64,000 nt of DNA from Vreelandella piezotolerans (lineage in GTDB: Bacteria; Pseudomonadota; Gammaproteobacteria; Pseudomonadales; Halomonadaceae), in contig NZ_CP048602.1 in assembly GCF_012427705.1 (NCBI RefSeq), positions 2,294,001-2,358,000 on the forward strand. Reading direction: 5' to 3'. Every line of letters starts with the position of its first letter. Within the stretch, counting starts at the first letter, position 1. The translations under genes were made by a program, and so were the position numbers. Below the pieces are notes generated by a model. The model was not told the origin of the DNA. It saw nothing but the letters and a program-made list of their open reading frames with translations, and did not search any database. Shown piece by piece: positions 1-1,272 of the stretch.

Positions 1-142
1 GAGTTTTTGCTTGAAGCTCTGCATCGCTTAGGCCCGCCAGGGTCTCTTCCAATGCATTGATGCTCTGCACACTTTTTTGCATGCGCTTGACTTCACGGTC
101 GTTCTTGGAGCCGACCACTTTACGTAACAAATTATTAATCAT
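1..142 (-). CDS. secA: SecA preprotein translocase ATPase, N-terminal fragment (runs off the window)
   Basis: The first 47 residues read from the ATG at 142 begin [20 protein letters not shown], which matches the conserved SecA N-terminus (the N-terminal helix followed by the GSxNDRxxKRM stretch). SecA is the cytosolic ATPase that drives preproteins through SecYEG. Everything after about residue 47, including the nucleotide-binding domains, lies outside the window. A short GGA 6-8 bases before the ATG is the only visible ribosome binding site. The gene is preceded on the same strand by a small reading frame with a signal-peptide-like N-terminus (222-578), as secM precedes secA in enterobacteria. 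Confidence 0.93.
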
Positions 143-160
143 GAAATTTCCAAATCATCG

Positions 161-185
161 TGAGCGCCCCATCCAGGTACGCTCA
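161..185 (-). promoter_or_regulatory. Stem-loop just upstream of the secA ribosome binding site
   Basis: On the minus strand a 6-base perfect stem (TGAGCG / CGCTCA, 161-166 and 180-185) encloses a 13-base loop. It lies between the stop codon of the small leader frame (222) and the secA start (142). It is placed where an RNA structure could respond to a ribosome paused at the end of the leader. The stem is short, so it may be chance. No structure that directly pairs with the weak GGA of secA was found by eye. Confidence 0.3.
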
Positions 186-221: not shown

Positions 222-578
222 TTATCGAGTAGGCGGGCCACGGGGCGTCACGACATCGCTTGCGGCGACGAGCGGGAGCGCAAACCGAAGAAAAGGTAAC
301 GGGCGACGGAAGGATTGGGGCTCTCGTCGCGTTTGGCGATGAAACCAGCGGCGAAGCGCGCGCCGTTTCTTCGCGATCCAATGAGACTGCGCGCGAAGCA
401 TGGCAGGCATCCAAAAGCAGATGCAAACACCACGGTCGCTGCTTCTCAACGCGTCGGATGGGTGTAAACTAGCGGGTAGTAAACAACTCACCAGCAAACC
501 AGCCAACCACCAACGCGCCAGGCCATAGCGTCGAGGACGCTTTAGCGAAGCGGATTCGATCTCTGACGTTGATGACAT
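222..578 (-). CDS. Putative SecM-like secretion-monitor arrest leader upstream of secA
   Basis: This frame encodes 118 residues and I do not recognise it as a named family. Seen directly: a basic n-region (KRPRR, 13-17), a hydrophobic core at about 21-38 (WWLAGLLVSCLLPAS), a likely signal-peptidase region around residues 39-43, an Arg/Trp-rich middle without obvious domain character, and the C-terminus TPRGPPTR with RGPP at 113-116, two residues from the stop. It ends 79 bases before secA on the same strand. An AGGAG lies 12 bases before the ATG. E. coli SecM shares this layout: a signal peptide, no other function, and a C-terminal RAGP arrest motif directly upstream of secA. Later-described monitors (ApdA, ApdP, ApcA) use RAPP or RAPG. 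I infer a ribosome-arresting leader that raises SecA translation when secretion is impaired. The alternative is a fortuitous frame; the other minus-strand frames here (190-426, 248-433) lack these features. Confidence 0.55.
   Translation of the reverse strand: MSSTSEIESASLKRPRRYGLARWWLAGLLVSCLLPASLHPSDALRSSDRGVCICFWMPAMLRAQSHWIAKKRRALRRWFHRQTRREPQSFRRPLPFLRFALPLVAASDVVTPRGPPTR
443..470 (+). promoter_or_regulatory. Candidate promoter for dciA
   Basis: TTCTCA (443-448), a 16-base spacer and TAAACT (465-470) each match four of six sigma-70 consensus positions and face dciA. A transcript from here would start near 477 and would be antisense to the first part of the secA leader frame (477-578). 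Confidence 0.3.
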
Positions 579-689
579 GCTGTGGACTGGCTCCTGAGCG
601 TGTTAGGCTCTGTCTATTGGCGGTCAATCACAGGTGATGCACGTAGTAACCAGTACGACGCCACTCGCAACACCCTAGGAATCAAGTTG

Positions 690-1160
690 ATGAGTATAAA
701 GGTTAAGCGTTCTCGCGCACAGCCCATTGCCCAACTGCTAACCAAGTCAGGCGGCGTCGGCCAGCTCATGCGACAATCACGCTTGATCGATCAAGCACAG
801 CGGCATCTCCGTGCTCATTTACCCGAAGAGATGCGTGAACATATTTTCGTAGGCGGTTTTAGCAATGGGCGCTTGACCCTCATCAGCGGGCAAGCGAGCT
901 GGCTGACGTGGCTACGCTACGAACAATCTCGCCTGTTATCGCTGCTTCACCAGCTCCCTGGCTTTGAGGGAGTGACAGGGTTCACCCTTAAAGTGCGCCC
1001 CGTACGCCCCATCGAGTCACCCAGACGCTTCACGCGAACGCTTTCCGACAGTGCGGGCAAAACCCTGGCCGAATGCGCCAAAGACGCTGACAGCCTCAGC
1101 CTCAAACATGCCCTAGAGCGCCTGGCCTCTCACGCTCGCCCGAAAGACACCAAAACGTAA
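690..1160 (+). CDS. dciA: DciA-family (DUF721) replicative helicase loader
   Basis: This 156-residue protein starts at ATG 690, chosen for the AGGA about 9 bases upstream and because the family N-terminus begins here; the open frame runs back to 582 without family-like sequence. The central part (about residues 35-110) is the DUF721 region, with the typical LRVxVxSxxWxxxLRY-like stretch visible as LISGQASWLTWLRYEQ. DciA is the ancestral loader of DnaB helicase in bacteria lacking DnaC or DnaI, and it is usually found beside secA and lpxC, as here. The gene is divergent from secA and convergent with lpxC. The C-terminal tail (after about 115) is variable and basic. Function is assigned by family and location. 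Confidence 0.85.
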   Translation: MSIKVKRSRAQPIAQLLTKSGGVGQLMRQSRLIDQAQRHLRAHLPEEMREHIFVGGFSNGRLTLISGQASWLTWLRYEQSRLLSLLHQLPGFEGVTGFTLKVRPVRPIESPRRFTRTLSDSAGKTLAECAKDADSLSLKHALERLASHARPKDTKT

Positions 1161-1185: not shown

Positions 1186-1212
1186 AAAAAGCACCGCCGA
1201 AGCAGTGCTTTA
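1186..1212 (-). terminator. Intrinsic terminator at the end of the dcw cluster (lpxC)
   Basis: On the minus strand a 7-base stem (AAAGCAC / GTGCTTT, 1188-1194 and 1205-1211) with a 10-base loop is followed by a T-run (the complement of A at 1186-1190). It lies 60 bases after the lpxC stop. In the plus direction only three Ts follow, so it may act weakly for dciA too. Confidence 0.75.
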
Positions 1213-1272
1213 TAGATGGGGAGCCATGTCACGTTTTCAACTCAACGCCCCAGACATTTTTATTTTGACGAA

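Follow-up and report, generated by a model that had tools for sequence, protein, structure and literature searches.

What does the small open reading frame directly upstream of secA do? In the window, by which we mean the whole 64,000-nucleotide stretch of Vreelandella piezotolerans DNA analysed here, the initial annotation described a 118-codon minus-strand frame ending 79 bases before secA and read it as a secretion monitor, a leader peptide whose translational arrest would control secA. Our coordinates agree: the leader runs from an ATG through 118 codons to a TAA stop at 224-222, with 79 bases between this stop and the secA ATG at position 142. The AGGAG, the basic residues 13-17, the hydrophobic core and the RGPP at residues 113-116 just before the stop also read as described. 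Upstream of the leader lie the divergent dciA and then lpxC, the latter also visible beside divergent dciA in 74 of 80 named loci. The features are as follows.

222..578, minus strand: leader ORF, putative arrest peptide, 118 aa (frame read, homologues, dN/dS)
591..595, minus strand: AGGAG, Shine-Dalgarno-like, 12 nt before the leader ATG, which is rather far
528..542, minus strand: basic n-region, residues 13-17, KRPRR (sequence reading)
465..518, minus strand: residues 21-38 (ARWWLAGLLVSCLLPASL), the signal segment, which includes Cys32 as part of a lipobox-like LV[SG]C (alignment and dN/dS of 0.018)
231..269, minus strand: residues 104-116 (VAASDVVTPRGPP), putative arrest motif at the C-terminus, VAAxDVLTxRGPP in the family
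231..242, minus strand: RGPP codons, R113-G-P-P116 (motif conserved among homologues)
222..230, minus strand: two-residue tail T-R plus stop (tail nearly neutral in the family)
162..184, minus strand: RNA hairpin GAGCG/CGCUC, 5 bp, 20-42 nt upstream of the secA ATG (modest covariation)
2..142, minus strand: 5' end of secA, the gene running on outside the window (full SecA identified)
582..1160, plus strand: dciA, divergent neighbour, Pfam PF05258 (so oriented in all 80 named loci)

The hydrophobic stretch of the signal-like segment spans Trp23 to Leu38 as judged by eye, the middle of the leader is basic, and its C-terminal end is VAASDVVTPRGPPTR. Of 76 named ORFs, 64 have an [AG]GGAG no more than 20 nt from the start chosen for them, and the tail after RGPP measures 1-15 residues across the 76. 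The true dciA start may lie inside the annotated frame, near position 690. A promoter and terminator scan detected nothing. At window positions 1188-1216 there is a sub-threshold Rfam match to the RsmY 3' end (21.8 bits against a cut-off of 57), which probably is just a hairpin and T-run after lpxC.

A conserved gene before secA

The leader protein matches no Pfam family over the cut-off (one chance match to TilS has an E-value of 0.99), and NCBIfam and PADLOC searches with it returned no match. RGPP occurs once in the 20,075 residues of the 63 gene-like frames of the window, where 0.28 occurrences are expected, and the chance that it starts within the last ∼15 positions of a given protein is ∼2e-4. 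Whether the leader is real or a product of chance is settled by its conservation and by free synonymous change in its codons.

A protein search returned 75 matches, and all those with an organism in the source name come from Halomonas, Vreelandella, Halovibrio or 'Halomonadaceae'. The leader is matched in 37 of 37 genomes of the window's genus examined, its own genome included, and in none of 21 genomes from other families of the order. A family profile matches 234 of 250 Halomonadaceae genomes and 20 of 24 genera, counts that refer to profile matches and not to RGPP ends; the 16 Halomonadaceae genomes with no profile match are counted against the arrest-monitor reading. Among the best 80 named loci, 79 have an R[G/A]PP end (78 RGPP and one RAPP, L137 from Halomonas litopenaei), and the leader stop is found 38-138 nt before secA in those 79. 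RGPP is present in 75 of 76 proteins (the query and its 75 matches), the exception, P0040, being unlike the other members over its final third. The initial annotation had named a missing frame or RGPP end in close relatives as evidence against its reading, and this is not what these genomes show. In L101 (Halomonas olivaria TYRC17, a complete genome) the leader is frameshifted, through either an assembly error or real loss, and this locus was excluded from the ORF counts after the 80-locus survey. A class-wide profile search gave weak matches outside Halomonadaceae in 9 of 323 genomes, all partial and seven with stops; the two stop-free ones (L213 and L214) have no secA nearby. The leader is a conserved coding gene kept by most of Halomonadaceae.

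We estimated dN/dS along the gene from 131 pairs (pS 0.05-0.55) among 39 close loci of the 76 ORFs; the values are descriptive, as pairs share branches. Segments were placed on L061, with one column common to the spacer and motif segments, and the set lacks L089, L113 and L129, which were lost to a strict anchor. The ratio is 0.29 for the n-region, 0.018 for the signal, 0.105 for the stretch that follows the signal, 0.31 for the spacer and 0.049 for the C-terminal motif (AAxDVLTxRGPP), and it reaches 0.87 in the tail beyond RGPP, a rough figure because the tail is short and gappy. Invariant residues are encoded by mixed synonymous codons (61 of 79 ORFs, with a stricter anchor), and the constraint therefore acts on the protein. 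Counting from the motif arginine in the 76 ORFs, Asp -5 is found in 76, Val -4 in 74, Ala -8 in 71 and Ala -7 in 70. Since the family is large and the comparative evidence clean, the important residues can be read from evolution: Asp -5, Val -4 and Ala-Ala at -8/-7. What we observe here is a conserved coding gene in its place before secA, with a signal-like segment and constraint up to RGPP. Protein alignments comprise A1, with 75 rows (P0066, of 66 aa, excluded), and A3, with 24 of the 76 proteins.

Relation to published arrest peptides

The RQH family is made up of peptides encoded by uORFs of secA or secDF, each with a signal, and their conserved C-termini carry RAPP-like motifs, among them RGPP (Fujiwara et al. 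2024, PMC10987492). The uORFs, small and of unknown function, were sought upstream of a sec or yidC gene, and signal and motif lie over 30 residues apart (PMC10987492). The leader is such a uORF before secA (at 79 nt in the window, and before secA in 79 of the 80 named loci); it has an N-terminal signal or transmembrane segment, read by eye, and a conserved C-terminus with a RAPP-like motif (VAAxDVLTxRGPP). Its spacer counts 77 residues in the window, from Leu38 to Pro115, and the distance from Cys32 to the motif arginine is 76-82. The leader probably belongs to the RQH group of secA sensors described in 2024.

One RQH group, uA_RQH_Pseudomonadales, has a tested member carrying R109GPP (PMC10987492). 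This peptide and uDF_RQH_Enterobacterales (R125GPP) arrest ribosomes of E. coli as well as of B. subtilis, with a fraction arrested above 0.9 (PMC10987492). RAPP and RGPP are reported to cause robust arrest refractory to EF-P (PMC12992588). The initial annotation had called the leader new: it is a new member, but RGPP leaders upstream of secA already form part of the RQH family, and stalling of a Pseudomonadales member has been demonstrated (PMC10987492). The leader and uA_RQH_Pseudomonadales have in common that they are secA uORFs with an N-terminal signal, a conserved C-terminus, RGPP and the same GTDB order. Halomonadaceae, which we take to belong to Pseudomonadales in GTDB, are placed in Oceanospirillales by the NCBI taxonomy. 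An arginine at position 109, as in the tested member, is present in 4 of the 76 named ORFs. The main text of PMC10987492 does not name Halomonas, and among the open-licence literature we found no Halomonas paper on an arrest peptide, or on SecM with secA.

We surveyed the stretch upstream of secA in 100 genomes from other families of the order, one to a few per family. Of these, 98 could be oriented (L264 and L273 could not; L180 comprises 214 bases only), and a uORF of at least 40 residues ending in R/Q/H-A/G/S-P-P within 350 nt of secA occurs in 0 of the 98. The published uA_RQH_Pseudomonadales group is thus, by exclusion, most likely the Halomonadaceae leader family itself. Six frames in the survey carry looser motifs, namely RGPS, RGPG (twice), RDPP, LPPP and RGPT (L175, L178, L229, L239, L242 and L257); RGPS, RGPG, RGPT and LPPP are also listed among the RQH motifs (PMC10987492).

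ApdA, ApdP and ApcA, like the leader, are linked to export, with RAPP- or RAPG-type arrest near the C-terminus (Sakiyama et al. 2021, PMC7897499; PMC10951233). They differ from it in being located upstream of secDF or yidC2 and in other lineages, and we set them against the leader by motif and place only. VemP of Vibrio has an arrest sequence different from that of the leader. It resembles the putative leader function as an export-sensing arrest peptide (PMC10987492) but controls secD2/F2.

A putative secretion monitor and its alternatives

We consider it very likely that the leader is an RGPP-type translation arrest peptide acting as a secretion monitor for secA. At the level of sequence, this reading is supported by the retention of frame and RGPP and by constraint that ends at RGPP. 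The N-terminal signal would direct the nascent chain to the Sec machinery, with the conserved VAAxDVLTxRGPP lining the ribosome tunnel. Toeprints of other RQH peptides place the third residue of the motif in the P site of the stalled ribosome (PMC10987492), from which we predict that the leader stalls with the P site occupied by Pro115 and the A site by Pro116; by analogy, the peptide bond between Arg-Gly-Pro and the incoming Pro would not be formed. When export is brisk, the pull of SecA/SecYEG would release the ribosome, as proposed for its relatives, and when export is slow, the ribosome would stay in place, ∼100 nt upstream of the secA start, and translation of secA would rise. The stall, its position and its release by pulling are here modelled on published relatives. 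That a stalled ribosome opens the secA start is a step that we infer and that our RNA analysis does not support in detail. Halomonas strains are grown industrially, and a native SecA feedback loop, if true, would therefore be of practical bearing on secretion.

Could the leader instead be an ordinary small secreted or membrane protein that functions after export, with RGPP merely its C-terminus and the adjacency to secA incidental? The dN/dS of 0.018 in the signal, together with the conserved ERxVxICFWVPAILRAQ, exceeds what a plain signal peptide needs and speaks for such a protein, but its spacer evolves faster and no domain is recognised. Strong constraint up to RGPP gives way to near neutrality right beyond it; an end of constraint at the second proline is predicted by ribosome arrest there and is unexpected for an ordinary protein. 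RAPP-like motifs are, moreover, reported to be excluded from proteomes (PMC12992588), and the gene precedes secA in 79 of 80 named loci. We regard an ordinary protein as very unlikely. A translated leader could also act on secA by plain translational coupling or RNA folding, with no nascent-chain arrest, and the short distance of its stop from the secA start (38-138 nt), with a hairpin between, would suit this. Coupling, however, needs no fixed amino acids, whereas the signal and the residues R, G, P, P and D hardly change while their codons vary, and of the alternatives weighed here we find this the hardest to credit.

A true SecM homologue, diverged past sequence recognition, would occupy the same slot upstream of secA with the same layout. 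SecM of Enterobacterales (PF06558) indeed shares with the leader its place before secA, a signal, a stall motif near the C-terminus and the presumed role, and a weak collinear N-terminal resemblance is seen by BLASTP (E-value 0.62, non-significant). Yet PF06558 has no match over the cut-off in 58 genomes, with E. coli positive as control, and is absent among the matches of the leader protein up to an E-value of 1. Two profile comparisons gave non-significant E-values of 0.05-0.06 and aligned unrelated parts; the SecM alignment holds 12 sequences (11 of 120 listed plus that of E. coli itself), the named ones being Enterobacteriaceae, and does not include distant forms, e.g. those of Pasteurellaceae. 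The leader has RGPP in place of RAGP. The SecM arrest sequence is FxxxxWIxxxxGIRAGP (PMC10987492), and this sequence, FxxxxWI included, is absent from the leader. In other families of the order, finally, the stretch before secA contains an M23 peptidase match in 72 of 100 genomes and an RxPP leader in 0 of the 98 oriented ones. In line with the initial annotation, which had seen no recognisable homology to SecM, we rejected this candidate after the profile search, both profile comparisons and BLASTP, and descent from SecM appears highly improbable.

The secA slot, Cys32 and the hairpin

New in the present analysis are an exclusion between leader and M23 peptidase gene, a conserved cysteine at a near-fixed distance from the motif arginine, and a hairpin before secA. 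An M23 peptidase relative is found upstream of secA in 14 of 14 leaderless Halomonadaceae loci examined, out of 16 leaderless genomes (L182, L184-L190 and L194-L199; genera g24, g26, g43 and g45), and in 0 of 84 leader loci (the 80 named ones and four from two diverged leader-bearing genera). Within the loci examined, leader and M23 gene are thus mutually exclusive in the slot before secA. Of the sizeable frames before secA, the M23 gene lies closest to it in the 14 (in L190 it ends 543 nt away), and Pfam confirms M23 in two of the peptidase relatives. No full-length M23 orthologue was found anywhere in 13 genomes of the window's genus, the best matches (38-45%) covering the catalytic part only. 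A leader in place of the M23 gene offers a bounded case of such sensors arising anew. Descent of the leader from the N-terminus of the M23 peptidase was considered and rejected (hhalign, non-significant E-value of 0.19).

Cys32 is invariant across the 75 rows of alignment A1. Among the 76 ORFs, for which the anchor demanded S or G, 48 have LVSC as the lipobox-like sequence and 28 have LVGC; outside this set, L089 and L129 carry LVGC and L113 carries LVTC. In a bacterial lipoprotein, the lipobox [LVI][ASTVI][GAS]C is preceded by a hydrophobic stretch no shorter than 7 residues. In the leader, six residues only separate Arg22 from the box, a short hydrophobic stretch for a lipoprotein. The signal segment ARWWLAGLLVSCLLPASL is conserved far beyond the need of a plain signal, and ERxVxICFWVPAILRAQ forms a second conserved stretch after it. 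The Cys-to-Arg distance averages 79.2 residues with an s.d. of 1.4 (76 ORFs). In secA-linked RQH peptides the signal-to-motif range is wide in most cases (PMC10987492), whereas that of the leader is nearly fixed, one family being a narrower sample than an order; this near-fixed spacing is counted against the arrest-monitor reading. At ∼77 residues, the signal-to-stall length is close to the 71 of short SecM forms (PMC10987492). The leader could be a specialised monitor as opposed to a general reporter of Sec activity: through its near-invariant signal, Cys32 and near-fixed distance, release would be tied to one membrane event, either processing of the lipoprotein type or pulling once the chain has a defined length. 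Such a monitor could have arisen within Halomonadaceae in the slot of a lost M23 peptidase gene; we offer this whole reading as a tentative and rather unlikely extension.

Most of the Vreelandella loci inspected (41 chosen rows) retain the hairpin between leader and secA. Alignment A4 consists of the window plus 40 loci chosen from the 50 that run up to L111; the 29 numbered above L111 were omitted, as were L067 and L087 (duplicates) and L098-L100 and L105-L109 (diverged, or hairpin not visible). In it, 91.7% of cells are paired, an upper figure given the omitted loci. Five cells are changed on both sides, compared with 1.4 in shuffles, and the covariation score is 0.181, compared with 0.143 in shuffles and 0.02-0.15 when the hairpin is slid; a version slid by -2 has equally many doubly changed cells. 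Of five measures, three are higher than in every one of the 500 shuffles and two fall within them: pairs changed on both sides (2 versus 1.1; 157/500) and further pair types (7 versus 6.9; 354/500). RNAalifold finds a local hairpin in 22 loci (z = -4.0 against column shuffles) and gives z = -1.0 for 17 Halomonas-type loci; for 18 long-spacer loci it predicts long-range pairs with the arrest codons that are no better than shuffles (z = -0.3).

A long-range RNA switch, in which the arrest codons would pair with the secA upstream arm, is strong in the window and failed both family-wide tests: the native pairing does not surpass that obtained with swapped partners (2163 of 20,000 permutations as good), and against synonymous recoding the mean z is -0.14 over 80 sequences, with -2.26 in the window. 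Blocking the footprint of the stalled ribosome lowers the predicted pairing of the secA Shine-Dalgarno region only from 0.50 to 0.42. Both the failed switch tests and this small change are counted against the arrest-monitor reading. RGPP is no better ruler for the distance to secA than the stop codon, with no real difference between s.d. of 15.5 and 17.0 nt. An inverted repeat, GCATGCTCT/AGAGCATGC (gapped consensus columns), is present between leader and secA in some of the 18 long-spacer Vreelandella loci.
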